Assembly (NCBI GenBank): GCA_030445745.1
Contig: JASUTE010000019.1
Coordinates: forward strand, 1-39,339
Source: Candidatus Cloacimonadota bacterium
GTDB taxonomy: Bacteria; Cloacimonadota; Cloacimonadia; Cloacimonadales; TCS61
Direction: 5' to 3'
DNA length: 39,339 nucleotides
This document shows positions 304 through 39,040 of the stretch, in pieces. A program made the position numbers and the translations under genes. The notes beneath the pieces were generated by a model, which was not told the origin of the DNA, did no database searches, and worked only from the letters and a program-made list of their open reading frames with translations. Numbering within the stretch: the stretch's first letter is position 1; every line of letters starts with the position of its first letter.

Positions 304-1647
304 ATGCTATATGATTTCCGATATACTGGAACCAATGAACAAGGCCGAACAGTTCAGGGTGAGTTGCAAGCAGAGAGCCTGCGTAAAGCCAAGAAGCAAG
401 TTGCCAAAATAGCTGCAGCGCGCAATATCAAGATAAGTAATATCGAGAAAAAACGCTTATTCTTGTACACGGTAAAGCTTCCCACGGGCCGCAAAGTGAA
501 GGGGCGCCAGTATGCTTACTACAAACGCGAGGTAGTAAAAGCACTGGAAAAGATGGGATACCAGCATGCTCGCATCGAAAGAGCGATAATCGATATTCGG
601 CTTAAACCACCTTTCCAAAATATTTTGAATTTTATAAATTTAAGTGCTTTTATGTTGCAAGAGGGCATGAGTTTTGACAAAATATTGCGTTTGCTGTGGG
701 AAGAAGAGAGCAATATTACCCTGAGAGAAGCCTTGCGTAAGGTGCAGAACGAGCTCAAAAAAGGCAAGGACGGCGAGGAAGTATTTCATCGTTATCGTGA
801 TGTTTTTGGGAAATTTCCGGCCTATATGCTGGGTTTGGCCACCAAGAGTGGTAATATGGCCCAAATTTTTACAGCTACTGCCGAATATATGCAGCGGGAA
901 GCAGATTACAAGAAAAATCTTCGGCAAGCACTTTTGGTGCCTTTGTTCACAGTATTGGCTATGATAGCTGCAGTAGTTTACTATGTAGTTTCCATTTTTC
1001 CCAAAACCGCTTCTCTATTTTTGAAATTCGATTTGGATATTCCGCCTATGACAGCTGCTACCTTGAAATTGAGCGGGTTTCTTTCCAATAATTGGATTTG
1101 GATTTTTTTAGTGATATTTTTACCGATAATTGGATTATATATCTGGTGGCAAACCCCCAAAGGGCGGGTACAGCGCGATAGATTGCTTATTCATTTACCC
1201 ATAATCGGGCCAATTTTTCATAAATCTTCTATTGAGATCTTCTTCCGAGTTTTCGCTATCTCCTATGCCAGTTCCAATGAAAATATCGAAACTCTGCGCG
1301 AAGCAGCTGCCGCCTGCCGTAATGTGTACATTGAAAAAGGAGTAAAGGAAATTGCCATTCCACTTATGTTGAAGGAAGGAATGGAATTGGTGCCAGCTTT
1401 GCAGAAAGCAAAGGTTTTCAACAGAACTACTCTCAATAGGCTAAAATCTGGTGCAGAAGCTGGTAATTTGCTAGCAATTGCGCGGCAGATTTACATGTTT
1501 TACGAAAAAGAGATTACCTATAAAATGCAAAATATCATCCAGGCTATTGAACTTTATATAGGTGTCTTTATTTTCATAATTTTAATTTTATTGACATTTG
1601 TTTCGGCAGAAATAGCTTTAGTTGCACCACCCACTCCGGGAATATAA
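304..1647 (+). CDS. pilC: Type IV pilus / type II secretion platform protein (PilC/GspF family)
   Basis: This is the inner-membrane platform protein of a type IV pilus or type II secretion-like machine, which couples the cytoplasmic ATPase to pilin assembly. The 447-residue length is near the family norm of about 400. After a soluble N-terminal region (1-100) come two T2SSF repeats, each starting with a soluble helical part. Membrane segments lie near residues 208-232, 263-283 and 416-441. The glycine-rich 'KSGNMAQIF' in repeat one and 'SGAEAGNLLAIA' in repeat two are the paired family signatures. It is the first gene of an eight-gene operon, and the ATPase gene starts 10 bases downstream. 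The residues ahead of the first repeat (about 1-100) are longer than in classical PilC. PilC and GspF cannot be told apart by sequence alone; the neighbouring PilM/N/O/P/Q-like genes favour the pilus label. Confidence 0.9.
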   Translation: MLYDFRYTGTNEQGRTVQGELQAESLRKAKKQVAKIAAARNIKISNIEKKRLFLYTVKLPTGRKVKGRQYAYYKREVVKALEKMGYQHARIERAIIDIRLKPPFQNILNFINLSAFMLQEGMSFDKILRLLWEEESNITLREALRKVQNELKKGKDGEEVFHRYRDVFGKFPAYMLGLATKSGNMAQIFTATAEYMQREADYKKNLRQALLVPLFTVLAMIAAVVYYVVSIFPKTASLFLKFDLDIPPMTAATLKLSGFLSNNWIWIFLVIFLPIIGLYIWWQTPKGRVQRDRLLIHLPIIGPIFHKSSIEIFFRVFAISYASSNENIETLREAAAACRNVYIEKGVKEIAIPLMLKEGMELVPALQKAKVFNRTTLNRLKSGAEAGNLLAIARQIYMFYEKEITYKMQNIIQAIELYIGVFIFIILILLTFVSAEIALVAPPTPGI

Positions 1648-1657
1648 AGAGGTAATT

Positions 1658-3430
1658 ATGATACATTCAAATATTGGCAAAGTTTTATTGAACAAGGGAA
1701 TAATAGACGACAAACAATTGGCAAAAGCAAAAAAACTGCAAAATGAAACCAGTGCTGACCTAATAGAGATACTGGTAGAAGATATTGGAATAGAGCGCGA
1801 TAAGATATACCAAGAACTGGCAGAATTGTATGGTTTACGTAAAATAAACATCGATTTGAACAAGTTAGATAAGGTGCGCATAAAAAATATAAAAGGTATT
1901 TTAAATGAGTTCGATGAAAAATTCAAAGAACAGTTATTGGAAAAAAATATTCTGCCCTACCAGCGCTCCTTGAGCAACAAAGATACTTTAATTGTAGCTG
2001 TAGCCAATCCTTCCGAAAAAATATTGGAAGAAATTCCACAACATAGCACTTTTAAAAACTATCAGTTGGGTTATTGCGACTACCACACTTTGCAAGAAGC
2101 TATAAAAATAATCACCAGCGGGAAAAATGAGTTTTTGGAATTGTTGGAGGAGGCTAACGAAGTTGTGGAAGAGCAACCTAGCGCAGAAGAGCAACAGGAA
2201 AATATCGACGAATATGAACTGGATGAAGAGATCAACCAGAGTCTATTGGTCAACCTTTTTGAAGGAGCTTTGATAGAAGCTGTAAGGAAGGGAGCAAGCG
2301 ATATTCACATTATTCCTCACAGCGGGAATAGCGTTGATTTCCTATTTAGAATAGATGGTAGGCTGCATCATTGGTATCGGCGCGATAACACTTCTCCCGA
2401 AGCCATAGCAGCTGTTGTGAAAGATCGTTCGGCTGGAGTGGATAGATTCGAGCGTTCCACTGCCCAAGATGGATTTACCCAAAGAGTGATCGATAAACAT
2501 CTCATCCGTTTTCGTATCTCCATAGTGCCCATTAGTTCCCAGGAATATGAACGAAAATTTGAAAGTATAGTGATAAGGGTGATAGACGACAGAAATGTGA
2601 TAACGAATTTACGGGAGCTGGGTCTTCAGGAACATGCAGAAAAGATGTTCAAAAAAGCTATTAGCAAAACCAAAGGTATTGTGCTGCTTACTGGCCCTAC
2701 CGGCAGTGGTAAAAGTACCACTCTGATGGCTGCTTTGCACCATGTAATATCACCCAGCAAAAATGTGCTTACCTGCGAAGATCCTGTGGAATATCTTATT
2801 CGCGGTGCGCGTCAGTTAAAAATCGGAAATAAATTCTCTTTCGAGGAAGCCGTTCGCTCTATTTTACGTCACGATCCCGATATAGTGATGGTAGGAGAGA
2901 TTCGTGATAAGATTACTGCCGACGTGGCTATTAAACTTTCCAATACAGGGCATCTTACCTTTTCCACTCTGCATACAAACGATGCACCCAGTGCTGTTTC
3001 GCGCTTGTATAAAATTGGCATAGAGCCTTTTCTTATTGCCTATGCTGTAAATATTGTGGTAGCCCAGCGCTTGGTGCGTAAACTGTGTCCCTACTGCAAA
3101 AAACCAATTGCACCAGAGAAATACGAGGTAGCCAAACAGCTTGGGTTAACCCAGCAGGAACTGGGAAGTGGTAAAATATTTGAATCTGGCGGTGGTTGCG
3201 ACCACTGTTTAGATGGCTACAAAGGCCGCTTGAATATATGTGAAGCGCTTTATTTTTCCAATGATATACGTAAGGCAATTGTAACTTCTGGCAACGAGAT
3301 AGATGAAGATAAAATTCGCAGGATAGCTATCGATGAAGGTATGCTTACCCTGCGCGAATCGGGCTTAGATAGAATTAGAAATGGACTAACCTCTGTTGCC
3401 GAAATAGCAACAGCTACTTCCGAGGAGTAG
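1658..3430 (+). CDS. pilB: Assembly ATPase of type IV pilus / type II secretion system (PilB/GspE)
   Basis: This is the cytoplasmic hexameric ATPase that powers pilin or pseudopilin extension. The start was set at ATG 1658, preceded by AGAGG at a good distance; an upstream TTG at 1622 would overlap pilC and lacks a site. The protein has 590 residues. Residues 1-150 resemble the MshEN/T2SSE N-terminal domain ('GKVLLNKGIID..QL'), but the usual Arg of the cyclic-di-GMP motif is Asn here. The core carries Walker A (GPTGSGKSTT), the Asp box (LTCEDPVEY), Walker B (DPDIVMVGEIRD) and the His box (HLTFSTLHTND). A tetracysteine zinc motif follows (CPYC, then CDHC). All catalytic elements are intact, so it should be active. 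No PilT-like retraction ATPase lies nearby, so one-way extension as in secretion systems is possible. Confidence 0.95.
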   Translation: MIHSNIGKVLLNKGIIDDKQLAKAKKLQNETSADLIEILVEDIGIERDKIYQELAELYGLRKINIDLNKLDKVRIKNIKGILNEFDEKFKEQLLEKNILPYQRSLSNKDTLIVAVANPSEKILEEIPQHSTFKNYQLGYCDYHTLQEAIKIITSGKNEFLELLEEANEVVEEQPSAEEQQENIDEYELDEEINQSLLVNLFEGALIEAVRKGASDIHIIPHSGNSVDFLFRIDGRLHHWYRRDNTSPEAIAAVVKDRSAGVDRFERSTAQDGFTQRVIDKHLIRFRISIVPISSQEYERKFESIVIRVIDDRNVITNLRELGLQEHAEKMFKKAISKTKGIVLLTGPTGSGKSTTLMAALHHVISPSKNVLTCEDPVEYLIRGARQLKIGNKFSFEEAVRSILRHDPDIVMVGEIRDKITADVAIKLSNTGHLTFSTLHTNDAPSAVSRLYKIGIEPFLIAYAVNIVVAQRLVRKLCPYCKKPIAPEKYEVAKQLGLTQQELGSGKIFESGGGCDHCLDGYKGRLNICEALYFSNDIRKAIVTSGNEIDEDKIRRIAIDEGMLTLRESGLDRIRNGLTSVAEIATATSEE

Positions 3431-3431
3431 A

Positions 3432-3860
3432 ATGAATACGGGACAAATGCTTATGGTGATGGTTGCTATTGTTCTTTTTAGCTCACTTTTTGTTAATTCT
3501 ATCACCAATATTTCCGAACAAAACGAAATAATTTACAAAGGTACATACATTCTGCAGGGACACAAAATTGCTGAGCGTTATTTCGAAAAAATAGAGGCTG
3601 AATTGCTGGGTGAAATAAGTAGCTTTGGTGAAGTTTTAGATAATTATGCCGATTATGATACGACTTTTACAGTGCAAAATGTTGATTATCAAGTTAGCAT
3701 CGTTTCCAACCTGTGTGATGCCAATGGTAATATTACCGATCCCCAAGAAGATTTCCAGCGAGTGGATATTAGAATAAACTGTAACTATGGTGATGATGTT
3801 TTGCACATAGGTACAGAAACCAACCCTTTAAGCAAAATTTTTGCAGATTTGAGTATGTGA
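3432..3860 (+). CDS. Small pseudopilin-like membrane-anchored protein
   Basis: This 142-residue protein has an N-terminal hydrophobic helix (about residues 5-22) directly after Met-Asn-Thr-Gly, then a helical stretch and a predicted beta-rich part. That is the architecture of a minor pseudopilin: a very short leader ending in Gly, a hydrophobic N-helix and a small globular head. It lacks the canonical Glu at position 5 after the glycine, so prepilin-peptidase processing is not certain. It starts one base after the pilB stop, with GAGGAG overlapping that stop codon, so it is translationally tied to pilB. I do not recognise a named family. Its place between the ATPase and the inner-membrane assembly genes supports a structural or priming role in the same machine. 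Confidence 0.7.
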   Translation: MNTGQMLMVMVAIVLFSSLFVNSITNISEQNEIIYKGTYILQGHKIAERYFEKIEAELLGEISSFGEVLDNYADYDTTFTVQNVDYQVSIVSNLCDANGNITDPQEDFQRVDIRINCNYGDDVLHIGTETNPLSKIFADLSM

Positions 3861-4414
3861 TGGGAAGTTTATTAGATACTCTGGGAGCTATGGTTTTGGC
3901 TTCTTTGTTCATACTCACGGTATATAACGCCGCTTTCAATGTGCAGGCTACAGCTTACGACAGCCGCCAGCAGATAACTCTTACCAAAGTAACTGAAGAT
4001 GTGGTGCGAGCTTTAGATGATAGGTATTTGAATTTCGTGGGAGCAGGAATAAAAAATAACAAGATAATTAAAGCCGAACCAACTCGGTTTAAGTTTCGCG
4101 GAATATTTCCTGAAGAACCAAATCACAAATACACGGTCGAGATAGTGGTAGAAGAAATGGTAGCAGAAAAGGGTTATCCTCTGCAAGTGTATAGGGACGA
4201 CAACCTGGAGATGGGGCCTTTTTGGTTGAGCAACAACTCTATATTTACCTATTATAATGAAAATGAAGAGGAAACAGAAGATAAAACCAGAATATATTCC
4301 GTAAAGGTTGAGCTGGAGCTTTTTTATGATTCTTTTACTGAAGATATCGGTGTAGATAAAATAAAAAATAAGGTAGTATTCTGGGAATATTTTAAAAATA
4401 TATATTTACAGTAG
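3860..4414 (+). CDS. Second pseudopilin-like membrane-anchored protein
   Basis: This protein of about 184 residues begins Met-Gly, then a hydrophobic helix (about residues 6-25, 'LGAMVLASLFILTVYNAAFN'), followed by a mixed head domain with charged beta-like strands. The chosen ATG (3860) shares one base with the upstream stop codon (TGATG), which signals translational coupling. A GTG at 3857 is the alternative start. As in the preceding gene, Gly sits directly before the hydrophobic helix. An acidic Asp is found at position 4 after it instead of the canonical Glu at 5. No named family is recognised. Its position and fold style suggest a second minor pseudopilin of the same assembly. Confidence 0.65.
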   Translation: MGSLLDTLGAMVLASLFILTVYNAAFNVQATAYDSRQQITLTKVTEDVVRALDDRYLNFVGAGIKNNKIIKAEPTRFKFRGIFPEEPNHKYTVEIVVEEMVAEKGYPLQVYRDDNLEMGPFWLSNNSIFTYYNENEEETEDKTRIYSVKVELELFYDSFTEDIGVDKIKNKVVFWEYFKNIYLQ

Positions 4415-4420
4415 GAAAAA

Positions 4421-7400
4421 ATGGGCAAAGTATCGCTTATAGTAGTTATGGTATTTATTGGAGTTATTGGAGTTATAACTCTTTCTGTGTACAATAGTAG
4501 CAGCCAGGTAGCCGATGTTTTGGCTGCCAAAGAAGCTACCGGAAATGCGGAAAATTTGGGGACTTATGCTCTGAAATACGCCATAAAAGAAGTTAAAACA
4601 GGTAATGTTACCTCTTCTACTATCCAAAATTTCGATAATTTTGCAGTTCTAAACGGAAATATAAATAGCTTGATATATAATTTTAACGAAGCAGCCGATA
4701 CTGTTAGAATAAAAGCAAATGTAAGCTGGCAGGGAGCGCCAGGGCTGGTGGAACACCAAAGTGAAGCTTGGGTGCAGCTAAGAACTTCTGGCTCGGGTAG
4801 TGGCGGCAGCGGTGGCAGTGCGGCGCCGTTCGAATTGGAAGATGAAAAAACGGATCTTTATACCGTTCCCAACCGTTTCTCTTTTTGGAAGTTCAACGAA
4901 AATGGTGGAATAATTGCCCACGACAGCGTTTCCGATAATGACGGTGAGTTAACAGATGGCTATTATTGGAATGGCTACAGCTTACCCCAGTGGGAAGTAG
5001 GTCGATCTGGAAAAGAGGGCTCTGCCTTGAAATTTAACGGTTGGGATAATTATGTGCATGTTCCTGATGCCGATTCTTTGGATCTGACCGATAAAGGAAC
5101 TATTTCAACCTGGGTTTATATCGAAGATTATACTAACTCAAACTCAGCCGGTTTTGTGCATAAAGGAGATCTAGGAGAATTGCATAATTGGCAAGATGAA
5201 GCATATTCCCTGCAAACAGATGGGTCTGGAGAATACGCAGTCTTTATTATAAATAATGATGAAAACGATCTTTGGCTATGGGGAAATAAACGCTTACAAA
5301 AAAAAGAATGGCACCACCTGATCGCTACCTTTAATTCCGAAAAAGTGGCTCTATACATCGATGGTGAGCTGGATGAAGAGATAGAAAATACCATCGGTGA
5401 AGTCAGAAATACTTCTGGTGGGTTGAATATTGGTGCTCAAACTAATCAATATGATGCAGCATATGGCCATTTTGGTTTAGATGGAATGATAGACCAGGTG
5501 AGTATTTTCCGTGAATATTTGAATGCAGATAAAGCAAAAAAATTGTATCTGCAAGAATTAGCAGCGACTTATTTGGCTTTAGATGAACCTAGCGGAGATA
5601 TAGCACACGATTATTCTGGGGCCGATAACCATGCCCAACTTTCTGATGGCTTAGAGCAAAACTGGACGACTGGCAGTACTGGTAATGGTTTGCTGTTCAA
5701 TGCCGATACTGACAGATTAAAAATGTCTTCTGCTCCCAATTTAACCGATATGGATGAAATAAGTATTGCAGCTTGGATAAATATAGATGAATTTACCGGA
5801 AGCGATGCCGATATTGTGAATAAAGATTTTCAGTATACGTTGCGATTAGGTTCTGCTACTGATAGCTATAGACCAGCCGGAATCGCCTATTTGAACGGTA
5901 ATGATGAAAATGTCTCTACTAATTACAACGACAGGATTTCTGTTTCCAATAGATGGTATCATCTAGCTTTTACTTACGACGATGAATATTTAAAAATTTA
6001 TATTGATGCTGATGAAAAAGCCAGCAATAAGAAAAAAAATAAGGACATTGAAGAAAGAGATAACACTATTTATATAGGCGGTTCGCAGAGTTCCCATGAA
6101 TTTAAAGGAATTTTAGATGAATTAATGATATTTGAAAAAGGTCTGACACCTGACCAGGTAGAAATTTTACACAAACGTGATGTGGTGAAAGAATTAAGAG
6201 GGCGCTGGACTTTGAATGAAGGGGGTGGAGAGATTGCCTACGACACTTCCAAATATAATCACGATGGCGATTTGCAAACTAATGGTGAAAACTTACCAGA
6301 ATGGGTAACAGGTAAATATGCCAAAGCGTTACATTTCGATGGCGATGATTTTGTAGGAGCGGAACAAGGATTGGTAAGTGGATATCCTTTCAGTATGGGT
6401 GCGTGGGTGCGAACAGGCTCTATGGCGAATGAAAATAATGATAGAGTTATCTTCAGCATTGCTAACAATCAAAAAAGCAACAGCTATTGGGGAATTTATT
6501 TAGGAAGAAAAAACCATGGTGAAGGCAGAGCAGTTATTGGAGCCTGCAATGGTAGCTTAGAAGCAGATTATAGCAGTGAAACCTCTGCCCGCATTGATGA
6601 TGGCACTTGGCATTTTGTAGTGGGAGTTTTCGCAGCAGCCGATAGCAGAAAAATTTACGTGGATGGGCAATTGCAAGCTATGGGTAGCCACAATGTGGAA
6701 TTTGATGCTAATATCAATAGTTGGGCAATTGGCCGTTGGTGCGATAGCAGCCCCAGTTCATATTTCCAAGGTGATATCGATCATGTGCGTATTTGGAACA
6801 GAGCACTAACCGCTTCCGAGGTTATCTATTTGAACACCGATCCAAATTATAGCACCGATCTGAGGGGCTATTGGGATATGAACGAAGATTCTGGAACCCA
6901 GGTTTTAGATAATTCCCAATATGGTAATACAGGCCAATTGACGAATTCAAGCGGCGATAATAGTTGGGTGAGCGGGCAAAGTGGAAATGCCTTAAAATTA
7001 GACGGAGTTGACGATTATGTGCTTATTCCCGATGATAGTAGTTTGGATGGTGTGAACAAGATGAGTATTGAGTTTTGGGTATATCCAACTAATTTAGATT
7101 GGTCATCCCGTGGCATAATTTCCAAACGTGAAGGAAATGATAATCAAGCTTATAGCTTATATTTCAACACTTTTTGGTGGATAAATAAACTTTATATAGC
7201 TATCGATAGTAATAATGACAGATTTTCTGCTGCTATGAATTTTGAAAATAATAGATGGTACTATGTGGTGGTAACCTATGATGGTGTAGCAAGTGAAAGT
7301 GAAAGAGTGAAGGTTTATATAGATGGGGAATTGGATACCACAGCATACGAAAGCAGCTCGTCGATTCCTAATTATAATTCTAATCTTTATCTGGGCGTAT

Positions 7401-8194
7401 TGGACGATGATTATAATTCCACATTAGGTGGCAAATTAGACGAAGTAAAGATCCACAATAGAGTTTTAACATCCACCGAAGTTCAAAATAACTTTTCAGG
7501 TGGTTCCGATATTAACTTAGATAACTTAGTTTCCTATTGGAATTTGGATGAAGGTGCCGGCACAATAGCCAATGATATCCAGGACGGTAATACAGGTACA
7601 ATAGAGAACAATGCTACCTGGATAGATGATGGTATCTTGGGTTCAGCTTTGCAATTAGATGGCAACAATGACTATATTAGCGTGGATAACAGCCAGAATT
7701 TGCAAATTTCGGAACAATTAACTTTGGAGATGTGGGTGAATACTAGCCAAAAAAATAAAACTACGGTATTGGCAGAAAAAGTAGATTGTTATGGTTTAGG
7801 ACAAGACAGTTCCATGGGATGGTACAGCTATATCTATACTGGTGGTTACTATTATAATTATTTGTACTGGAATAATGGTAAGCCGCAGCATCACCGCTGG
7901 TATTATTTAGTTCTTACCTACGATGGCACGGAGATGAAATTTTATGTTGACGGTCAATTGCATGATAGTACAATTTTAAATAATAATATTTCCACATATG
8001 ATAGTGATTTTAATATTGGATATGATTCTTGGTACCAAACTTATTTTAAAGGAAAGGTTGACGAAATTAGGGTGTGGAATATAGCTTTAACAAAAGCAGA
8101 TATAGAAAGTTTATATAATGAAGGAAGCCCGATTGTTCCAGAACCAGGCGGGGGCGGCGAAACTGTTTTTAAAATTGTATATTGGAGTGAATAA
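4421..8194 (+). CDS. Giant pseudopilin-like protein with five LamG/concanavalin-type domains
   Basis: This 1257-residue protein starts Met-Gly and a hydrophobic helix (about 4-24), followed by an amphipathic helix and a small beta region up to about 120, which together resemble a pseudopilin. A glycine-serine hinge (near 123-134) leads to five laminin-G-type jelly-roll domains, starting near residues 153, 383, 594, 816 and 1039. Each opens with a W/L-x-(F/L/M)-(N/D)-E-x-x-G motif and the 'H/YD.S...(H/N)DG' turn. Each closes with '(I/L/V)DE/QV.I(F/W/H)...L' as in LamG_3/concanavalin-like lectins. The C-terminus has a GGGG linker and a short aromatic tail. LamG folds commonly bind glycans or host and matrix ligands. 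Encoded inside the pilus-like operon, it is probably the displayed tip or surface adhesin, or the substrate of the machine. The pilin fold is inferred from the N-terminus only. Confidence 0.85.
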   Translation: MGKVSLIVVMVFIGVIGVITLSVYNSSSQVADVLAAKEATGNAENLGTYALKYAIKEVKTGNVTSSTIQNFDNFAVLNGNINSLIYNFNEAADTVRIKANVSWQGAPGLVEHQSEAWVQLRTSGSGSGGSGGSAAPFELEDEKTDLYTVPNRFSFWKFNENGGIIAHDSVSDNDGELTDGYYWNGYSLPQWEVGRSGKEGSALKFNGWDNYVHVPDADSLDLTDKGTISTWVYIEDYTNSNSAGFVHKGDLGELHNWQDEAYSLQTDGSGEYAVFIINNDENDLWLWGNKRLQKKEWHHLIATFNSEKVALYIDGELDEEIENTIGEVRNTSGGLNIGAQTNQYDAAYGHFGLDGMIDQVSIFREYLNADKAKKLYLQELAATYLALDEPSGDIAHDYSGADNHAQLSDGLEQNWTTGSTGNGLLFNADTDRLKMSSAPNLTDMDEISIAAWINIDEFTGSDADIVNKDFQYTLRLGSATDSYRPAGIAYLNGNDENVSTNYNDRISVSNRWYHLAFTYDDEYLKIYIDADEKASNKKKNKDIEERDNTIYIGGSQSSHEFKGILDELMIFEKGLTPDQVEILHKRDVVKELRGRWTLNEGGGEIAYDTSKYNHDGDLQTNGENLPEWVTGKYAKALHFDGDDFVGAEQGLVSGYPFSMGAWVRTGSMANENNDRVIFSIANNQKSNSYWGIYLGRKNHGEGRAVIGACNGSLEADYSSETSARIDDGTWHFVVGVFAAADSRKIYVDGQLQAMGSHNVEFDANINSWAIGRWCDSSPSSYFQGDIDHVRIWNRALTASEVIYLNTDPNYSTDLRGYWDMNEDSGTQVLDNSQYGNTGQLTNSSGDNSWVSGQSGNALKLDGVDDYVLIPDDSSLDGVNKMSIEFWVYPTNLDWSSRGIISKREGNDNQAYSLYFNTFWWINKLYIAIDSNNDRFSAAMNFENNRWYYVVVTYDGVASESERVKVYIDGELDTTAYESSSSIPNYNSNLYLGVLDDDYNSTLGGKLDEVKIHNRVLTSTEVQNNFSGGSDINLDNLVSYWNLDEGAGTIANDIQDGNTGTIENNATWIDDGILGSALQLDGNNDYISVDNSQNLQISEQLTLEMWVNTSQKNKTTVLAEKVDCYGLGQDSSMGWYSYIYTGGYYYNYLYWNNGKPQHHRWYYLVLTYDGTEMKFYVDGQLHDSTILNNNISTYDSDFNIGYDSWYQTYFKGKVDEIRVWNIALTKADIESLYNEGSPIVPEPGGGGETVFKIVYWSE

Positions 8195-8205
8195 CAGGGG
8201 AATGA

Positions 8206-10461
8206 ATGAGCAAAATTAATTATGCTTTTGGAATTTTTCAGGATGGGCTAAATGTAAAAGTTGCCCAGTTGATGGAGCAAGATGGTGAAATAAAGGTGCA
8301 AAAACTAGCTCAAACTAAACTAACTTATCCTCTTTATGTAAAAAGTGATGAAGGGATGATCGAAATGTATCAATCTCAGGATGAAGATACCTGGGATAGC
8401 AGTTTTGAAGATGTAATGGACAATATTTCCAAAATTCAGGAAGAAGAAGCAGCTACCAGTAAAGCTGAATTGCAAAATCTACTCTCCGCATTCCCCCTTG
8501 AAAAAGGCAAAATTTCGTTAAATATAGATGACGAACAGATTACATATTATCAATTTGATGGTAAAGTTTCGGCAGCCAAGATATATAAAACCCTTAAAAA
8601 GGATTATATTCCCGAAGATGAATTGATTGCTAAAGACTATCAAATTGGTTATTTCGATAAAGATGAAGATTCCAAAATGGCAATTGTACAGCATGGTGAA
8701 AATTACTTACTTAATGCTATCAAAGAAATTCGTAAGCAGATGGGAAAAAAGAAGAAATTCACATTTGGTCATGTAAATACAAATGAAGTTTCGCTTATGA
8801 ACCTATTGGAATTGAACTACGATTTGCAAGAAGATGAGTTTGTATTGCTGCTCTATGTGGGGTTAGACTATAAGGTTGGAATAGTAATGAAAGGTTACCA
8901 TCATTTTAAGAGTTTTCCAATTATAGTGAACAGCTCCGATCCGGAAGAGGTTCGGAGGGCAATATACTCTAAGATCATGCTGCAACAGGATATTAGCAAT
9001 GTACCCATTAGCCAACATATTATTTTAGCTGGCGAAGAGATATTTGTGAATAAAGATACCTACGAATATTTCAAAGAAAATATGCACGAAAACGATAAAT
9101 TGGAATTCATGGAATTACACAATATTGGAATAGATACAAATTATGCTGCTGAGCTAACCAATGCCGAAATATCGCGCTATGCCATTCCTATTGCCTTAGC
9201 GTGGAAGACCTTGATTCCACAGGAAAAGAGTTTTCAGAACAGTAATCTCTTACCCACTAACATTTTGGAAGCGCAAAAATTCCACAAAATTACCTGGCAC
9301 GGTTATCTTGCTCTGATAGCTATTTTTGGCTTTGTGTTGATGGCAACAATAAACCATTTGGAATTGAACCAGGAGTTAAAAAAAGTTAAACAGATGCAGG
9401 AGTTATCAAAATCTGAATTAACCGCAATTGAATCTCAGCACCAGGAGTTATTGCAGCAGGTGCAGCAGTTGCGTAAATTGCACAGAGGTCCCACAGATTT
9501 TGAGCTTAGCTTACAAAGTATAAGAAAATTACAACAGGATAAAAAGAATTGGTATTTTGTCCTGAAAAAATTGGAAAAAATGGTTGCCGCCTATCCTATA
9601 ACCTGGATTACAAATTTGAATACACACGAAGAAGGATTTGCTATAAATGCTTTCACTACCAAAAAGCGTAATATAATCCATTTTGCCAATATTTTTCCAG
9701 ATGGTTTCATTCAGAGGATAAATCAAACCAGTGTGGAAGGAGAAAAAGTGTGGCAGTTCGATGTGCGCTATAATTTTCCTGAAGAAAAGGAAGTAGTTGC
9801 AGTGCAAGCAGAAGAGCCAGTATTAATTTCTCAACAAGATGAGTTATATGAAATTCAAGTTTTAGCTTCTACCGATAAGCAGAGAGTAGAAAATTTAGCA
9901 AATAAATTAACCCAGGCCGATATTCCAGTGAAGATTACCAAGATAAACAATGAAAAAGGGTTGATATATCGGTTACGTTTAGAGCGTAGTTTTAAGTTAG
10001 CTGAGGCAGAAAACAGGGCAAAACAGCTACAAAAACAGTTCCCACAAATTACTGATTATTGGCTAGCTAAAAAACAACAGAATTTTGCTGAAAGCGCTGT
10101 TGTAGAATATAATAAAGCTGTAGATCTTTATTTTCAGGGAAACTGTAAACAAGCTTTGCAAGAGTTTAAGAATTTCACTGCGCAATATCCCCACCACTAT
10201 CTAGCTAATAATGCCAGATATTTACAAGGTGAGTGTTATTACAAACTGGGAGAGATAGAGCCAGCTAAGCAAGTATTCTTGAAATCAGTGGAAAATAATA
10301 CCAGCAAAAAACCCGATGCTCTGAAATTGCTTGGTAAAATAGCTATGGAACAAGATAAACCAGAGCAAGCAAAATATTACTGGCAGCAGTTAATACAGAC
10401 TTACCCTCAGCATTACCTACGAGATGATGTGGAAAAGCTGATGGCGGAATTGGAGCAATAA
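8206..10461 (+). CDS. PilM-PilN-like fusion with SPOR and TPR domains
   Basis: This 751-residue protein appears to merge parts that are separate in classical systems. Residues 1-350 resemble the actin-like PilM/GspL cytoplasmic domain ('FGIFQDGLNVKVAQL' opening; second half from 'FVLLLYVGLDYKVGIV'). A transmembrane helix (about 366-386) and a coiled coil (387-425) follow, then a PilN-like periplasmic part (about 435-530). A SPOR-type domain (about 547-622, 'YEIQVLAS..' to 'AKQLQKQFP') would bind septal peptidoglycan. The C-terminus (about 632-751) has CpoB-like tetratricopeptide repeats. ATG 8206 is chosen with AGGGG just upstream. The next gene overlaps its stop by one base. PilM and PilN normally form the inner-membrane alignment complex with PilO and PilP. 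Here one polypeptide would run from cytoplasm to cell wall. The domain calls rest on motif reading; the SPOR and TPR parts are clearer than the PilM part. Confidence 0.8.
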   Translation: MSKINYAFGIFQDGLNVKVAQLMEQDGEIKVQKLAQTKLTYPLYVKSDEGMIEMYQSQDEDTWDSSFEDVMDNISKIQEEEAATSKAELQNLLSAFPLEKGKISLNIDDEQITYYQFDGKVSAAKIYKTLKKDYIPEDELIAKDYQIGYFDKDEDSKMAIVQHGENYLLNAIKEIRKQMGKKKKFTFGHVNTNEVSLMNLLELNYDLQEDEFVLLLYVGLDYKVGIVMKGYHHFKSFPIIVNSSDPEEVRRAIYSKIMLQQDISNVPISQHIILAGEEIFVNKDTYEYFKENMHENDKLEFMELHNIGIDTNYAAELTNAEISRYAIPIALAWKTLIPQEKSFQNSNLLPTNILEAQKFHKITWHGYLALIAIFGFVLMATINHLELNQELKKVKQMQELSKSELTAIESQHQELLQQVQQLRKLHRGPTDFELSLQSIRKLQQDKKNWYFVLKKLEKMVAAYPITWITNLNTHEEGFAINAFTTKKRNIIHFANIFPDGFIQRINQTSVEGEKVWQFDVRYNFPEEKEVVAVQAEEPVLISQQDELYEIQVLASTDKQRVENLANKLTQADIPVKITKINNEKGLIYRLRLERSFKLAEAENRAKQLQKQFPQITDYWLAKKQQNFAESAVVEYNKAVDLYFQGNCKQALQEFKNFTAQYPHHYLANNARYLQGECYYKLGEIEPAKQVFLKSVENNTSKKPDALKLLGKIAMEQDKPEQAKYYWQQLIQTYPQHYLRDDVEKLMAELEQ

Positions 10462-11333
10462 TGGCTAATACAACCAGAAATACCCTAATACTATTAGTTT
10501 TATTATTGATTGTGATTATCGCAAATTCTTTCTATACCTCTTCCAGCAAACATAAATTGCAAAAATACATAGATACAAACGAGATGAATTTAACAAAAAC
10601 CAAGCGTTTGCAAAACGAAATTATTAATTTGCAGCAGGAAAAAAGCCGTTTAGATAGCCTAAAAAAAGCCAGAGAAGCACTTAAACCTGCAAAAATGGAT
10701 AAACTTCTTTTAAAAGAAGATAGACCAGAGATAACATATAATTATCTCCTGGATATTGCCGATAATTTTGCTCCTGGCATTAGCTTCAATTTTACTCCTG
10801 CTGCTAAAGAAACTGTAGCAGGGGTTGAATCTAACACCTATGAGCTTGTTGGCACTAGCTCGATAGAACAACTTTATAAATTTGTATTTCATGTAGAAAA
10901 TCAGCCACTCTTCTATAAAATCGATGATCTTTCAGTTAATTCGCTGAGTCCTGCTAAACAGGATACAATCTCGTTTCACTTACGCCTGCGTTCTTTTTAC
11001 AGTGACACAGGAGTACCACTAAGCGAAATAGAGTTAAAAAGATATCACCTTGAAAAGTATGGTAAAAATCCCTTTTATAAAAAGATACACGCTCCGGTTG
11101 CGGTTAGCGATAATTTATTGAATATTAGCAAATTGAAACTGATAGGATTGAATCTACATGAGGCATTTTTTGAAGATTCTGATGGGAAAGTTCACATATT
11201 GCAACCAGGTGATAAAGTTCAGTATGGCTATTTTTCTTACATAAACTGGCCTCAGCAGACAGCCGTTTTTAACATTAATAAAGTAGGATTGAACAAAAAT
11301 ATAGTTCTTAAATTAGCAAAGGAAGAAAAATGA
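10461..11333 (+). CDS. PilO-like alignment protein with PilP/GspC-like C-terminal domain
   Basis: The 290 residues comprise an N-terminal membrane helix (9-25), a coiled coil (about 30-72), a PilO-like ferredoxin-fold region (about 80-185) and a C-terminal beta domain (about 218-287). In that last part, 'LKLIGLN..EAFFED.DGKVHILQPGDKV' resembles the homology region of PilP and GspC, which contacts the secretin. In classical systems PilO and PilP are separate proteins linking the inner-membrane complex to the outer-membrane pore, so this looks like a fusion. It overlaps the preceding gene by one base (TAATG) and the following secretin gene by four (ATGA), so all three are translationally coupled. 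The PilO assignment leans on architecture and position; the PilP-like part on a recognisable motif. Confidence 0.75.
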   Translation: MANTTRNTLILLVLLLIVIIANSFYTSSSKHKLQKYIDTNEMNLTKTKRLQNEIINLQQEKSRLDSLKKAREALKPAKMDKLLLKEDRPEITYNYLLDIADNFAPGISFNFTPAAKETVAGVESNTYELVGTSSIEQLYKFVFHVENQPLFYKIDDLSVNSLSPAKQDTISFHLRLRSFYSDTGVPLSEIELKRYHLEKYGKNPFYKKIHAPVAVSDNLLNISKLKLIGLNLHEAFFEDSDGKVHILQPGDKVQYGYFSYINWPQQTAVFNINKVGLNKNIVLKLAKEEK

Positions 11334-12490
11334 GAAAATTACTCTTATTAACCATAGTTTTTTCACTTATATTTAGCCTGCAGGCTGCTACCAGCAGGGC
11401 ACAAGAGCAATATAACGAAGATGAATTGATTTCGTTAGCCAGCGATATCAGTTTTGCTAAAGCTATAAATGCTCTGCAGGTGATGTCCGAAAAATATGAA
11501 GACAAAAAGATAGTTAATTTAAGTAGCTATTCTGGTCCGATAGCTATTCCTTTAAATTTTGTTTATTGGAAACAAGCTTTGCATATTCTAGTGGAACATC
11601 ATGATTTGGTAATGCAGGAACTGCCTGGTGCTTACAAAATTTCAGATCCAGAAGAACCCAAAATGGAAAAATCGGATATAGATATCGACGCCAAACAGGT
11701 AAGAATAAGTTCTATTTTCTTTAAAACAGATGCATCGGTAAGCAAAGGTTTAGGAATCGATTGGTCCGCCATCTATAGCGGCGAAGTTAACATATCTTCT
11801 GCTGAATTTAGCGGGGGTAGCAACATTACCGATGCTATCCTGGAAGCTTCCACTACAACCAATCAGGAAATAGGTGGTTATTCCATCGATATTAATGCTT
11901 TACTGAGAATTCTGGAATCGCATCAGAAAGGTTCTGTTATTGCCAGACCCAGTGTAACGGTTTTATCTTCCAAAACAGGTTATATCCAAGTAGGTGAAGA
12001 TTTTTCGGTAAAAACAACCGATGAAGCAGGCAATACTACCGATGAATTCTTCCAAACTGGGATAATAATGAATGTTACGCCAACAGTTGTGGAAGAAAAT
12101 GGACAGGAAGCTATTCATCTGCAAGCTTCAGTAGAAAAGAGTTCTGCTTCTCCAGGCGATATTAGTACTATTATCCTAAAAAGCCAATCGGAGACTGAAG
12201 TTTTGCTCTACGATGGTGAACAAACCGTTATTGGTGGCCTTTATGACACAGATATAGTGAAAACCAGATCGGGAATACCTCTGTTGAAAGATCTGCCCTG
12301 GTGGTTTTTTGGCATAAGATATTTAACAGGTTACACTAACAGTGAAAAGAAAGTACGAGAGATGATAATTGTACTAAAAGCTGAGATCATAGATCGAGTA
12401 AGCGACCGCGTTAAAAATAAAATGTCAACTGAAGAAGAGATAAAAAATATAAGAGAAGATCATCAAAAAGCAGAGGAATTATTCAACTAA
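11330..12490 (+). CDS. pilQ: Short outer-membrane secretin (PilQ/GspD family)
   Basis: This secretin forms the outer-membrane ring pore of the machine. A signal peptide (about 1-24, ending S-R-A before Gln) is followed by one N0/STN-like domain (about 35-108). The secretin core (about 115-355) starts 'VRISSIFFKTDASVSKGLGIDW' in outline. It includes 'GSVIARPSVTVLSSKTGYIQVGE' in outline, 'TGIIMNVTPTV' and 'IPLLKDLPW', all family signatures. At 386 residues it is much shorter than PilQ or GspD (600-750), because the repeated N1-N3 ring domains and any AMIN domain are absent. It overlaps the PilO-like gene by four bases and is the last gene of the operon. Its 3' end overlaps the convergent AhpD-like gene by 12 bases, and no terminator is visible. 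Confidence 0.9.
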   Translation: MRKLLLLTIVFSLIFSLQAATSRAQEQYNEDELISLASDISFAKAINALQVMSEKYEDKKIVNLSSYSGPIAIPLNFVYWKQALHILVEHHDLVMQELPGAYKISDPEEPKMEKSDIDIDAKQVRISSIFFKTDASVSKGLGIDWSAIYSGEVNISSAEFSGGSNITDAILEASTTTNQEIGGYSIDINALLRILESHQKGSVIARPSVTVLSSKTGYIQVGEDFSVKTTDEAGNTTDEFFQTGIIMNVTPTVVEENGQEAIHLQASVEKSSASPGDISTIILKSQSETEVLLYDGEQTVIGGLYDTDIVKTRSGIPLLKDLPWWFFGIRYLTGYTNSEKKVREMIIVLKAEIIDRVSDRVKNKMSTEEEIKNIREDHQKAEELFN

Positions 12491-12817
12491 ATTCTGCCAA
12501 AAATTTATAGCTCTACGAATGTGGGGAATGGTGATGGAACCGCCCACAACCAAAGCTATAGACAACACTTCCTCGATAGCTGCCTCTTCTACTTTAAGCT
12601 TGCAACACTGGTGCAGATGGTAACGAATGCAGTCGTCACAACGCAAGACTAACGATGCTACTAAGCCCAGCATCTCTTTGGTTTGTCTATCTAAATTTCC
12701 TTTACGATATACCTGATTATCTAAGCTTAAGAACCTTTGCATCTGTTTACCAGCGAAATTTTGCATCTCCTGGTTCAAGTTTTCTCGTTCTTGCAAAAAT
12801 GCTTCGATAGATTTCAT
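12479..12817 (-). CDS. AhpD-like / carboxymuconolactone decarboxylase family protein
   Basis: This 112-residue helical protein matches the CMD/AhpD-like family. It has the redox motif C60-D-D-C63 with His67 behind it ('RCDDCIRYH'), set after 'TKEMLGLVASLVL' as in alkylhydroperoxidase-type proteins. A peroxide- or thiol-linked antioxidant role is possible, but substrates differ widely in this family. The start was placed at ATG 12817 with AAGGGGAG upstream; a TTG at 12841 would overlap the upstream gene and is less likely. It follows the small anchored protein gene by 16 bases and probably belongs to the gpmI transcription unit. Its stop lies inside the 3' end of the convergent secretin gene. 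Confidence 0.85.
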   Translation of the reverse strand: MKSIEAFLQERENLNQEMQNFAGKQMQRFLSLDNQVYRKGNLDRQTKEMLGLVASLVLRCDDCIRYHLHQCCKLKVEEAAIEEVLSIALVVGGSITIPHIRRAINFWQNLVE

Positions 12818-12833
12818 CGCTACTCCCCTTATA

Positions 12834-13250
12834 TTAATCAAAAATAGAGCGGTAGTGCAGTTCTACGGTAGCTTTTTTTATTTCCTCTGGGTTGCTAACT
12901 GGCTGCAAAAATCTTTGAATAACTTTGCGGAATTTTTGGCGTCGAGCAGCTTTTAGGTTTATTTGTGTAATCTTGGTGGCTATCACCTGGTCACGGTTGT
13001 TGTATACTTTTATAATGAAGTCTTTTTTCACATCTACTCCCATTTTGTTTATCACTGTAAAGGTAACATCGATATTACTGAGAGTTTTTTCAGCTATTTG
13101 CACATCGCTAATAATAATTTTATCTGGTTGGCTTTTTTTCCAGCAAGCACGAATACTTATTCCCGCTATTACTGCTATTAAAAGCAGCAACTTAATGCTA
13201 GATGGAATGGTTCTTTTCTTGTGCATATCTATTCTTTCAAAATAAGCCAT
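12834..13250 (-). CDS. Small membrane-anchored protein of unknown function
   Basis: This 138-residue protein has a basic N-terminus, one hydrophobic helix (about residues 19-35) and then a single beta-sandwich-like domain. The alternating pattern 'IIISDVQI....SNIDVTFTVINKM' to 'DFIIKVYNNRDQVIATK' resembles small extracytoplasmic Ig-like domains such as FxLYD, but I do not recognise a named family with confidence. The ATG is preceded by AGGAG, which overlaps the 3' edge of the gpmI stop, so it is co-transcribed with gpmI. A Cys in the membrane helix is not in a clear lipobox. The function is unknown. Confidence 0.7.
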   Translation of the reverse strand: MAYFERIDMHKKRTIPSSIKLLLLIAVIAGISIRACWKKSQPDKIIISDVQIAEKTLSNIDVTFTVINKMGVDVKKDFIIKVYNNRDQVIATKITQINLKAARRQKFRKVIQRFLQPVSNPEEIKKATVELHYRSIFD

Positions 13251-34149: not shown

Positions 34150-36636
34150 TTATTTCAGTAGCAGCATTTTTCGGCTTATTTGCTTAGTAGGTGTAATCAA
34201 TCTATAGAAATAGATGCCGCTTTCTACTTCCCTGCCTTCACTATCCCTACCATTCCATACTAGTTGTGTTTGGTTGCTGTTCAAGTCATAAGAGGTTATT
34301 TTCTGTCCTCGTAGATTGAAAATTTCCAACTTAGCATTTGCGTTGTTTCCTATTTGGAATTGGATAGTAGTAGAAGGATTGAAAGGATTGGGGTAATTGC
34401 CCTGCAGTGAACAGGTTTCAGGTACATTTTCCCCGCTATTTGCCGTTAAACCCGCTTCCACAATATTGGAAGCAGCTGATTCTCCGCTAGTATAAACAGC
34501 TGTAACATAAAACTGGTAAATTTGCTCTGGTTCCAAATCACTCACCAGGTAGGAAGTACCGCCAGTGTAATTTTCTTCTATCAGAACATCATCCATGTAG
34601 ATATTGTAACCCAAAAGCTCTTTAGAGTTTGTTTGGGAAAATTTTTCTGAATTTGCACTTACCACCAAACCTTGAATATTCCAATTTATATTCCAGCCAA
34701 AGTAGTCGGACATACTAACCCAGTCGGAGCCATAAAGCAGCATATCACCATGGAAGGGAACAGCTGGGCCAGCATCGGTACCGGCCGGGTAAGCTCCATT
34801 GGGGTTAATGATATGATAACCAAACCATAACTCCTGGCTGCTATCGATTTGAATAGGGTAGTCCAGTTGTACTAAATTCCAACTATTGGCAGTTAGTTCT
34901 TCTACCTCTTGTTCCAATACTAATTCGCCAGCAAAATATTGGGAACCGCCCTGCCATACTCGCAGATAGAGTTCACAGTCGTTATCTACCAGATAAAAAC
35001 GGATTTTAGTAAGATAATCACCATCATATTGGGAAAGATCACCAGGCGTGAAACGAACAGCGCTATCGAACAGCGGCACCGAATCTCCGCCTACCGAATC
35101 TGTATTTTCACCATTGTCCCAATGCAGGTATTCTCCATCAGATTGTGGTTCCTGCCATTCCAGTTGAATATTATCTTCTACAACTTCAGCAGTAAGGTTT
35201 ACAGGTGGGAACAGTATTTCAGATTGCTCTTCTAAAATAAAGTTTAATTCCACATTTTCAGCTTCATTTACTTCAACTTGCTGAGTATCGGTTTCATAGC
35301 CATCTGCTGAGCAGTTTACCTGGTAGCTGCCTGGTGAAACAAAAAGTTCATATTCTCCTGCTGCATTGGAATAAGTAGAAAATGAACTAGCTGTAATTAG
35401 TGCATTTTCTATGGGGGCACCAGTGACATTTTGCACAGTGCCAAAAATTGATGCTATTTGCTGGTAAGTATAAGTGCCAGCTCTGCCGTAGATCTCATAA
35501 TCGAAGGTGCCGGCTTCGGCATAATGCCAAACACAATAAAGTTGGTCTATCTCTGCTTCGGAAGAGCCAATTATGTGTGGCCAGCCAGAAGCTCCTGTTT
35601 CAGCGGAGATCAGTTCTGGTTCACTCCAGTTGCTGCCATTGTTCAAAGAATAGCGCAAATATATCTGCCTTTCACTGGCATAGGTATCGTCACTCCAAAC
35701 TAAATATACGCTAATAGCATCATTTGGATTTTCGCTCAGCCATAGGTTAGGCCGGGAAGAAGAACCGGTGTTATCGGAAAGATTACCCAGGTTTTCCCAA
35801 TCTTCGCCATCATTTTCCGATCGGTACACAAAAATATCGGATTGCAGTTCAGTTGGCTTGGCTGAAACTGCAATATAAATGTTGTTTCCCAGAACTGCTG
35901 TATCTAAACGGGCATTATAGGCCATATTGTTGGAAATATTTAGCGGCTCGCTCCAGCTCTGGCCGTTATCGGTAGATTTGGAAAAAAAGAGATCCAAATC
36001 ATCATAGTTGCCGCCTATTTGAGCATTCCAAGTAGCATAAATAGTGCCGTTGGCAGCAACCAGGTTTACCCAGCGTGAATGATACTCTGGTTCCGATATC
36101 TGCACTGGTTCACTCCAACTGTCACCATTATCGGTAGATTTCATTAGGTAGATTTGGTAGGTGTTTTGGTTGTTTCTGTCTTCATAAGCCAAGTATATGG
36201 TGCCGTTCATAACTGCTACCTGGCAGGTTTGTGCACTATAATTGGAATTGGTTACTTGCACCTCGCTTTCAAAGCTATTGCCGTCGCTTGTAGAGCGGCA
36301 CATAAAAATTTCGCTGTTATCTTCTGTATTGCGATGATAAAAAACATAAACATTGTTATTTTCTTTTGCGATGGCTGGGTAGTTACCGCCACTATCGAAG
36401 CCTGAATAAAGTATCTGTTCTGCGCTCCAGCTAGCGCCCCCATCAGTAGATTTCTTAAAGGCGATATCACCCCATTTATTCCAGGTTAAGTACAAATTGG
36501 AACCATCTTTTACCAAATCGGGTTCTTCTGAAACCACGCCCGGTGTTTGGGAAATGTTTTGGATTGGTGAAAACTCTAATTGTGCCCAAACTGGCAAAGT
36601 TAAAACTAAAATTAAAATAATGAAAATTCTCTTCAT
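34150..36636 (-). CDS. Secreted Asp-box (sialidase-like repeat) protein with FlgD-like C-terminal sorting domain
   Basis: The 828 residues begin with a signal peptide (about 1-19). Six Asp-box repeats of the type S-x-D-x-G-x-x-W (near residues 65, 113, 164, 221, 273, 326) form a six-bladed sialidase-like propeller. A carboxypeptidase-regulatory-like beta domain (about 393-470) and a fibronectin III region with an inserted beta domain (about 480-735) follow. The C-terminal module (about 747-828) starts NYPNPFNPST and ends 'RKMLLLK', a FlgD-like/type-A sorting domain used for surface delivery in FCB bacteria. No sialidase catalytic Arg triad or FRIP motif is evident, so it may bind rather than cut glycans. 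It is divergent from the lamin-tail gene and monocistronic, with its own terminator. Confidence 0.88.
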   Translation of the reverse strand: MKRIFIILILVLTLPVWAQLEFSPIQNISQTPGVVSEEPDLVKDGSNLYLTWNKWGDIAFKKSTDGGASWSAEQILYSGFDSGGNYPAIAKENNNVYVFYHRNTEDNSEIFMCRSTSDGNSFESEVQVTNSNYSAQTCQVAVMNGTIYLAYEDRNNQNTYQIYLMKSTDNGDSWSEPVQISEPEYHSRWVNLVAANGTIYATWNAQIGGNYDDLDLFFSKSTDNGQSWSEPLNISNNMAYNARLDTAVLGNNIYIAVSAKPTELQSDIFVYRSENDGEDWENLGNLSDNTGSSSRPNLWLSENPNDAISVYLVWSDDTYASERQIYLRYSLNNGSNWSEPELISAETGASGWPHIIGSSEAEIDQLYCVWHYAEAGTFDYEIYGRAGTYTYQQIASIFGTVQNVTGAPIENALITASSFSTYSNAAGEYELFVSPGSYQVNCSADGYETDTQQVEVNEAENVELNFILEEQSEILFPPVNLTAEVVEDNIQLEWQEPQSDGEYLHWDNGENTDSVGGDSVPLFDSAVRFTPGDLSQYDGDYLTKIRFYLVDNDCELYLRVWQGGSQYFAGELVLEQEVEELTANSWNLVQLDYPIQIDSSQELWFGYHIINPNGAYPAGTDAGPAVPFHGDMLLYGSDWVSMSDYFGWNINWNIQGLVVSANSEKFSQTNSKELLGYNIYMDDVLIEENYTGGTSYLVSDLEPEQIYQFYVTAVYTSGESAASNIVEAGLTANSGENVPETCSLQGNYPNPFNPSTTIQFQIGNNANAKLEIFNLRGQKITSYDLNSNQTQLVWNGRDSEGREVESGIYFYRLITPTKQISRKMLLLK

Positions 36637-36997: not shown

Positions 36998-39040
36998 ATG
37001 TTTAAGAAAAGAGGATTTTTAGTTTTATTTTTAATTTTTAGTGTAAGCATGGTGTGGGGACAGACGACGATTAAGTTTTGTGGTTTTGAGGATTCTGGTG
37101 ATACATGGAATTATTCTAACGCACATACTGCTAAGTGGGGCAGTTGGGGAATAAAAACTTCCTTGGGTAGTATAAAACCTTATGAGGGTTCTTATTTTTG
37201 GGGGATGAATGATTTAGACACATTTAGTGATACATATCTTGAATTCGATAATGTCGATATTAGCTCTTATAATGATGTAGTAATTTCCTTTTATTGGACA
37301 GATAATGCATTTGATGATGGTGATGATATGTTCTATTCTTTGTCTTATGATAATGGAAGCACTTGGGAAACTGAGGTAAAATTTTTGGATGGAGGTTCTG
37401 GAGCCCACAGTTGGACTGAACAAACAATTTATATTAGTGATTCTGAGAATCAAGTAGCTTTGCGTATTAAAGCTTACCAAAATGGAGGAGCTGATAACGC
37501 TGGTTGGGATAATTTTAAAGTAACTGGTACTTCTTCAACTCCTGACCCCGAACCTTCAAATTATCCAACGGGTTTTACAGCCACAGCTAATGGCTATGAT
37601 CAAATTGATCTTGGCTGGACAGATGCCACCGGAGAAACTCTACCTGATGGATATTTGATAAAAGCTAATGAAACTGGCACTTTTACTGATCCTGCCGATG
37701 GAACTGATCCAACTGAAGATACAGATCTTTCTGATGGAACAGCACTGGTTAAGGTTGCCCATGGTGCAAAGGGTTCATATAGTTTTACTAGTTTAAGTGA
37801 ACTCACCACTTATTATTTCAAAATATGGTCCTATACAAATTCCGGAACAGATATAGACTTCAAAATCGATGGCACTGTTCCCACAGATAATGCGACAACT
37901 GAAGAAGCGCCTTCAATTGTTTCTCCATCAGTTGGAGTTGTATTTATTAGTGAAATTGCTGATGCAGGTTCTGATTATAATTCTGAATATATTGAGTTAT
38001 ATAATAATAGTGATGATATAATTGATTTATCTAATTCTAAAATTGTTATGGACCAAAGTACAAATTTTCAAATAACCAATTATACAGGAGATTCTCAGAT
38101 TCCTTCCAACGGTTTATTTATAATGTCAAGGGGTGCAACAAAGACAGAATTTGAAACAGAATGGGGTCCTTTACCAACAAATTGCAATTATAATGAAGGT
38201 TCCAGTAGTATGTATTTTGGTACTGATACTGCTCGCAGATGGCAACTAATTTATGATGACGGTACTAAAGCAGATGTAATAATTGATGATACACAAACAG
38301 CTGTTGCAGGTTCTGGTAACCGTAGTTTACAAGAACCTATTGGGGTATGGAATACATATGATTCTTCCAATGCTACCCCTGGCCAACTTGATCCAGGCCA
38401 AACCCTTCCCGTAACCTTATCAACTTTCACGGTTGTATTTGTAGATGAGCAGCCCTTGCTGCAATGGAAAACCCAAAGTGAGGAAAACAATGCTGGCTGG
38501 AATATCTACCGAGGAGAAACCGAAACAGCTTTCCAAACCGAAACTGCCCAGATAATTAATTTCGAGATAATTCCTGGCGCTGGCACCAGCAGCGAGCCTA
38601 CTACCTATGAATACAGCGATGTTTTCCCAGTACAACCAGAATCCAGTTACTATTATTGGCTGGAAAGTGTAGATTACAGCGGAACAACCCATCTTTACGG
38701 CCCAGTTACACTGGAAGTTCCTGAAGATGATATTCCAGGCGATACACCAGAGCTTCCCTACAAGTACGGTATGCAGAATTATCCTAATCCGTTCAATCCA
38801 TCCACCGAGATCAGTTTTGTACTGCCTCAAGCCAGTCCGGTAGAACTGAATATTTACAACCTGAAGGGTAGAAAAATTCGTACCCTGATAGCTGGCGAAA
38901 CTTTGGCTAAAGATAAACTGCATAAAGTAGTATGGGACGGTACAGACAGCAGTGGCCAACCAGTTAGCAGTGGTATTTATTTGTACAAATTACTAACTCA
39001 AGAAAAGGTTTACACCCAGAAGATGCTGTTAGTAAAATAG
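36998..39040 (+). CDS. Secreted lamin-tail-domain protein with FlgD-like C-terminal sorting domain
   Basis: The 680 residues begin with a signal peptide (about 1-22). A jelly-roll-like beta domain (about 24-175, 'ISFYWTDNAFDDGDD') is followed by a fibronectin III domain (about 186-300). A lamin-tail domain (about 312-425) has 'VFISEIADAGSDYNSEYIEL' as its signature. A second fibronectin-like module ('LQWKTQSEENNAGWNIYRG', about 488-506) precedes the C-terminal sorting domain (about 594-680), which starts NYPNPFNPST and ends 'QKMLLVK'. Surface attachment or release is expected. AAAGGAGG precedes the ATG. Codon use in the first two thirds looks more AT-rich and different from the last third (from about 38400), suggesting a swapped passenger. 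The ligand is unknown. Confidence 0.88.
   Translation: MFKKRGFLVLFLIFSVSMVWGQTTIKFCGFEDSGDTWNYSNAHTAKWGSWGIKTSLGSIKPYEGSYFWGMNDLDTFSDTYLEFDNVDISSYNDVVISFYWTDNAFDDGDDMFYSLSYDNGSTWETEVKFLDGGSGAHSWTEQTIYISDSENQVALRIKAYQNGGADNAGWDNFKVTGTSSTPDPEPSNYPTGFTATANGYDQIDLGWTDATGETLPDGYLIKANETGTFTDPADGTDPTEDTDLSDGTALVKVAHGAKGSYSFTSLSELTTYYFKIWSYTNSGTDIDFKIDGTVPTDNATTEEAPSIVSPSVGVVFISEIADAGSDYNSEYIELYNNSDDIIDLSNSKIVMDQSTNFQITNYTGDSQIPSNGLFIMSRGATKTEFETEWGPLPTNCNYNEGSSSMYFGTDTARRWQLIYDDGTKADVIIDDTQTAVAGSGNRSLQEPIGVWNTYDSSNATPGQLDPGQTLPVTLSTFTVVFVDEQPLLQWKTQSEENNAGWNIYRGETETAFQTETAQIINFEIIPGAGTSSEPTTYEYSDVFPVQPESSYYYWLESVDYSGTTHLYGPVTLEVPEDDIPGDTPELPYKYGMQNYPNPFNPSTEISFVLPQASPVELNIYNLKGRKIRTLIAGETLAKDKLHKVVWDGTDSSGQPVSSGIYLYKLLTQEKVYTQKMLLVK

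Follow-up and report, generated by a model that had tools for sequence, protein, structure and literature searches.

The locus studied here raises the question of whether its eight genes encode an ordinary type IV pilus, an ordinary T2SS (type II secretion system) or a different machine. It occupies positions 304–12490 on the + strand of a 39,339-nucleotide stretch of Candidatus Cloacimonadota DNA (GenBank assembly GCA_030445745.1, contig JASUTE010000019.1, positions 1–39,339; hereafter named the window), which is the start of contig C20 of a 2.04 Mb, 99.3% complete, 38-contig assembly. The eight tightly coupled genes listed in a preliminary description, made from the letters alone, were all confirmed, with intergenic gaps of −4 to 11 bases. 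They encode an inner-membrane platform (F), an assembly ATPase (E), three pilin-like proteins (p1, p2 and p3), two fusion proteins (MN and OP) and a secretin (Q). That description overlooked two absences, those of leaders on the pilins and of a prepilin peptidase in the genome. We consider it quite probable that the locus belongs to a distinct type IV filament machine of FCB (Fibrobacterota–Chlorobiota–Bacteroidota) bacteria whose pilins are translated without a leader, the window holding a reduced, LamG-bearing copy, and probable that this machine is a new branch of the type IV filament superfamily, with pilins born mature and prepilin processing not essential for assembly.

It is generally accepted that every type IV filament system has prepilin leaders and a peptidase that cuts them, and the usual detection methods depend on both. 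A 2023 review describes the class III signal peptide as invariable on type 4 pilins and counts the prepilin peptidase among the ancestral components (PMC10191384). The machine has an ATPase and a platform encoded together, as in the rest of the superfamily; class III signal peptides on its pilins and a peptidase in the window genome were not found. We examined the longest ATG/GTG/TTG frames of 59 p1, 61 p2 and 65 p3 homologues and of 66 homologues of p0, a small protein of related operons. A hydrophobic helix started from the first residues in 64/66 p0, 50/59 p1, 49/61 p2 and 61/65 p3 proteins. In 34 of the 59 p1 genes a stop codon lay no more than two codons upstream of the start, and therefore a leader cannot be encoded; the same was seen for 12 p0, 15 p2 and 16 p3 genes. 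An SD (Shine–Dalgarno) sequence was present at the start of most p0, p1 and p3 genes. The same reading, applied to canonical pilins from the window's phylum, gave leaders of at least 10 residues ending in Gly and followed by FTLIE or FSLIE.

In the window, p1 (MNTGQMLMVMVAIVLF..., 142 residues, 3432–3860) begins with an ATG preceded by the SD sequence GGAG, and the GspJ/PilW-like p2 (MGSLLDTLGAMV..., 184 residues, 3860–4414) begins with the ATG at 3860, which is coupled to the stop codon of p1; this corrects an earlier choice of GTG 3857. Residue 5 of p1 was Q, E or D in 47/59 homologues and residue 6 of p2 was D or E in 47/61 (Asp6 in the window), and profile alignment placed both on the conserved pilin Glu5, suggesting that the start codon lies close to the N-terminus of the mature protein. 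The literature covered, which took in no preprints and only a minority of subscription papers, yielded no account of type IV pilins lacking a leader.

No A24 prepilin peptidase was detectable in the window genome and no N_methyl prepilin scored above the cut-off; the sole ATPases above the T2SSE cut-off were those of the machine, which is present in two copies. As a control, the A24 search was applied to 14 bacterial and archaeal genomes and was positive in 12. Among the Ignavibacteria, only 7 of 66 machine-positive genomes had A24. Three of the 59 without it (G163, G235 and G240) have first contigs of 5.24, 3.74 and 3.67 Mb, about the whole genome, are apparently single-contig, and carry the machine with a leaderless p0. 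In the Cloacimonadota, A24 showed no association with the machine (Fisher P=0.19), whereas p0 did (P=6e-8), and at the two loci read (L217 and L218) A24 adjoined canonical PilB and PilC. Judged from these distributions, the prepilin peptidase looks dispensable for the machine. A comparable gap is on record for Melioribacter roseus, in whose genome pilT, pilQ, pilB and pilC are present and pilA and pilD were not found (PMC3534657); a leaderless p0 would explain it, although no genome in our set was recognized as that of M. roseus.

The evidence that p1, p2 and p3 are pilins comes from predicted structure and N-terminal conservation. The AlphaFold model of p2 (pLDDT 93) has a 58-residue helix (residues 2–59) followed by a β-sheet, and that of the p3 N-terminus, the other part modelled, has a 59-residue helix (residues 2–60) with a four-stranded antiparallel sheet; both are predicted to be pilin lollipops. 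Among the 50 Foldseek matches listed for p2, the pseudopilin EpsJ (2ret_D) had the top probability (0.54, E 0.2, not significant), and the p3 N-terminus gave generic α/β matches only, none of them pilin-like. Neither p1 nor p2 matched a pilin family in Pfam, and PDB profile searches with both returned nothing relevant. Thus the earlier view of three pseudopilin-like proteins gained from the two predicted folds and from N-termini conserved in all three, but found no backing in the pilin families.

The third protein, p3 (1257 residues, 4421–8194), carries five Laminin_G_3 domains (1.5e-119) at residues 206–373, 427–581, 640–802, 861–1022 and 1080–1229, with pairwise identities of just 21–31%. 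The NCBIfam family TafC was rejected as an assignment for this protein, which scored 193 bits against a cut-off of 410, and the five matching stretches fit the LamG repeats. Most of 65 p3 homologues start with MG[KR], and a C-terminal tail (FKIVYWSE in the window) is common to them whichever module intervenes; a Trp fell within the last nine residues of 34/65 p3 proteins and of 6/764 other machine proteins. The shared tail points to an invariant pilin frame into which the modules are inserted. LamG was one of several modules in this slot (13 of 35 sampled p3 proteins), and the giant window protein is a LamG-bearing pilin candidate. A lectin grafted on a minor, modular pilin has a precedent in Streptococcus sanguinis PilC (PMC9934059), and the window p3 likewise joins LamG domains to a predicted pilin-like N-terminus.

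In most complete copies of the operon a further gene, p0, lies upstream of F. It encodes a very conserved protein of 125–170 residues with the N-terminus MG[TQ]QQ[IL]LLIVLSVIIVGIAVAVGI, and it was present in 92 of 125 Cloacimonadota genomes. We liken p0 to a major pilin by its size and helix and its occurrence in tandem arrays; it matched none of the pilin families of Pfam and NCBIfam, and its top PDB profile matches were geopilins, at a marginal E of 0.18–0.65. One array (L211, contig C134 of genome G119, 2748–12959) holds nine tandem p0 genes, with two unrelated genes interspersed, upstream of a machine in which a LamG protein of 1196 residues (L057) fills the p3 position. An orphan leaderless p0-like gene was also seen (L210, 9043–9468, − strand) in a single-contig genome, G001, which lacks the machine secretin. 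In the window genome no p0 was found in searches down to E 10. Positions 1–303, at the contig start upstream of the operon, are repeat-like and non-coding, and thus a p0 gene past the contig edge may exist.

The machine is not confined to this genome. Secretin homologues occurred in 95 of 125 Cloacimonadota genomes and in 67/119 genomes from the class to which an Ignavibacteria host belongs; the operon was conserved in about 55 Cloacimonadota loci, and related operons were found in Ignavibacteria and, as single loci each, in Calditrichota, Marinimicrobia and Zixibacteria. Cloacimonadota-type operons were also seen on four contigs titled Armatimonadota or Neomarinimicrobiota (L118, L122, L141 and L152), which are probably misnamed bins. 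The usual order is p0, F, E, p1, p2, one or two p3, histidine kinase, response regulator, PilT, MN, OP and Q. The window gene set looks reduced because p0, the kinase, the regulator and PilT, present in most relatives, are missing from it; the reduced set noted earlier is therefore real but not unique, being one copy of a wider machine. The same genome has a second operon on contig C16 (L004, 75–10143, and L003, 18158–19998), which repeats the core of the window copy and adds genes for a histidine kinase, a regulator and a PilT-like ATPase; its p3, of 297 residues, is β-rich, lacks LamG and has a weak bactofilin match. A recent duplication of the two operons was rejected, since their ATPases sit in different subclades. 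By its gene content and distribution, the window operon represents, in a reduced form that bears LamG, a previously undescribed machine widespread in FCB bacteria.

The platform F (447 residues, 304–1647; T2SSF, 4e-24) has orthologues in the machine operon of most relatives. For the ATPase E (590 residues, 1658–3430; T2SSE, 1.5e-94), ATG 1658, with the SD sequence GAGG in front, was preferred over TTG 1622. In the ATPase tree, which contains a small reference set and some long branches, the machine ATPases formed their own clade (support 97/95), distinct both from the phylum's canonical PilB proteins (100/100; few sequences) and from the GspE side, represented only by Escherichia coli GspE and HofB. 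One divergent machine ATPase (L194) fell outside the clade on a long branch, and the PilT-like proteins of the machine were likewise separate from canonical PilT. This position bears out the preliminary description in its claim that the locus matches neither a standard type IV pilus nor a standard T2SS.

MN (751 residues, 8206–10461) has a SPOR domain (2.5e-6) and TPRs, and OP is a protein of 290 residues (10461–11333). The SPOR and TPR parts of the proposed PilM–PilN–SPOR–TPR (GspL-like) fusion were recovered directly, but PilM/PilN and the PilO/PilP pair in OP were assigned only by profile comparison with canonical proteins of the same phylum and by weak Pfam matches in homologues. Comparison by hhalign gave 0.006 each for PilM and PilN, in the right order, 2e-4 for PilO and 0.03 for the PilP-like C-terminus; in Pfam, PilN matched 4 of 27 MN homologues with E values no higher than 0.1, the lowest being 0.0043, and PilO matched one OP homologue (6.5e-4). 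The short secretin Q (386 residues, 11330–12490; Secretin, 4e-29) consists, by alignment, of a signal peptide, an N0-like segment and the secretin C-domain. Further along the window, 34150–36636 and 36998–39040 encode two large secreted proteins with a YPNPFNPST...-type C-terminal domain resembling sorting domains of the T9SS (type IX secretion system).

How does the machine compare with known systems? Like the type IVa pilus, it has a platform, an assembly ATPase, PilT in most copies, PilM/N/O/P-like proteins and a secretin, and it shares the modular lectin pilin with S. sanguinis PilC (PMC9934059); unlike it, the machine has leaderless pilins, no dedicated prepilin peptidase, fused PilM–N and PilO–P, a secretin with little beyond N0 and the C-domain, and its own ATPase clade. 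In several relatives a true type IVa pilus coexists with the machine. The GspL/GspM-like fused architecture and the p2 fold, nearest to EpsJ, recall the T2SS. The sizes of GspG/I, GspJ and GspK resemble those of p1, p2 and p3 respectively. However, a family search recognized no GspC, GspG, GspH or GspI, the ATPase lies outside the GspE/HofB branch, PilT accompanies most family copies, and there is neither leader nor GspO. Tad, MSHA, Com and archaeal type IV filaments share the pilin, platform and ATPase logic of one superfamily. MSHA loci also lack their own peptidase, but their host genomes always have one from another system (PMC6668835), whereas many hosts of the present machine have none and its pilins are leaderless.

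Several observations weigh against a leaderless filament. All of the evidence is computational and no filament has been observed; the Foldseek matches are weak, as are the geopilin and hhalign scores; the register of p0 against pilins was inconsistent between two comparisons; the window genome, in its 38 contigs, has no recognizable p0; and SD sequences were less common for p2 (18/61). The weak Foldseek matches, together with the missing pilin family matches and the p0-less window copy, would also fit p1–p3 being N-terminally anchored membrane proteins other than pilins, in a non-filamentous trans-envelope display or secretion device. We regard this as unlikely, given that in different phyla the genes of p1–p3 share an operon with those of the platform, ATPase and secretin, that p2 and p3 are modelled as lollipops, that p1 and p2 have Glu5-like residues, and that p0, whose genes can stand in tandem arrays, is like a major pilin in its size and its helix.

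The near-invariant Gly2 of p0 (65/66) and p3 (60/65) leaves room for a two-residue leader cut by PilD, where PilD exists. Short or unusual leaders of this kind, such as Met-Gly cut after Gly2, or a non-standard upstream start, are quite unlikely overall: p1 and p2 have no conserved Gly, many of the genes have stop codons directly upstream, and A24 is missing from most machine-positive Ignavibacteria genomes. A standard type IV pilus or T2SS, with its peptidase gene at another locus or lost from the assembly, is a very unlikely reading. Peptidases can be shared between systems (PMC6668835), and 80 of 95 machine-positive Cloacimonadota genomes have A24; but where read, that peptidase goes with a separate canonical type IV pilus, the Ignavibacteria without A24 include apparently single-contig genomes, the machine pilins offer no leader to cut, and the ATPases form a separate clade. 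Taken together, the sequence data are most likely explained by a peptidase-independent type IV filament displaying adhesive modules.

Such a leaderless filament could be assembled as follows. We infer that the start codons of p1, p2 and p3 (and of p0 in relatives) stand at about the cut position of the prepilin peptidase, so that the proteins would be inserted with their N-termini at the cytoplasmic face, ready for the platform and ATPase with no processing. MN, OP and the secretin would form an envelope-spanning channel, and display of LamG through the machine's own secretin, as proposed earlier, is a reasonable hypothesis. The modular p3 would probably be a tip or minor subunit, whose lectin domains, carried to the surface, may bind glycans of polymers or of partner cells. 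In most relatives p0 would build the shaft; as it was not found in the window copy, either p1 would polymerize there or the copy would display no more than a short tip complex.

Type IV pilus operons of Cloacimonadota have been noted earlier, together with an electron-transfer hypothesis (PMC13082233). If our reading is true, a machine working without leaders and peptidase would mean that prepilin processing is dispensable, and 'incomplete' pilus gene sets such as that of M. roseus would be explained. The missing major pilin would be supplied by p0 (MGQQQLLLIVLGVIIVG...), which belongs to no Pfam or NCBIfam family. The finding would also bear on attachment, and on the proposed electron exchange, of Cloacimonadota in digesters.
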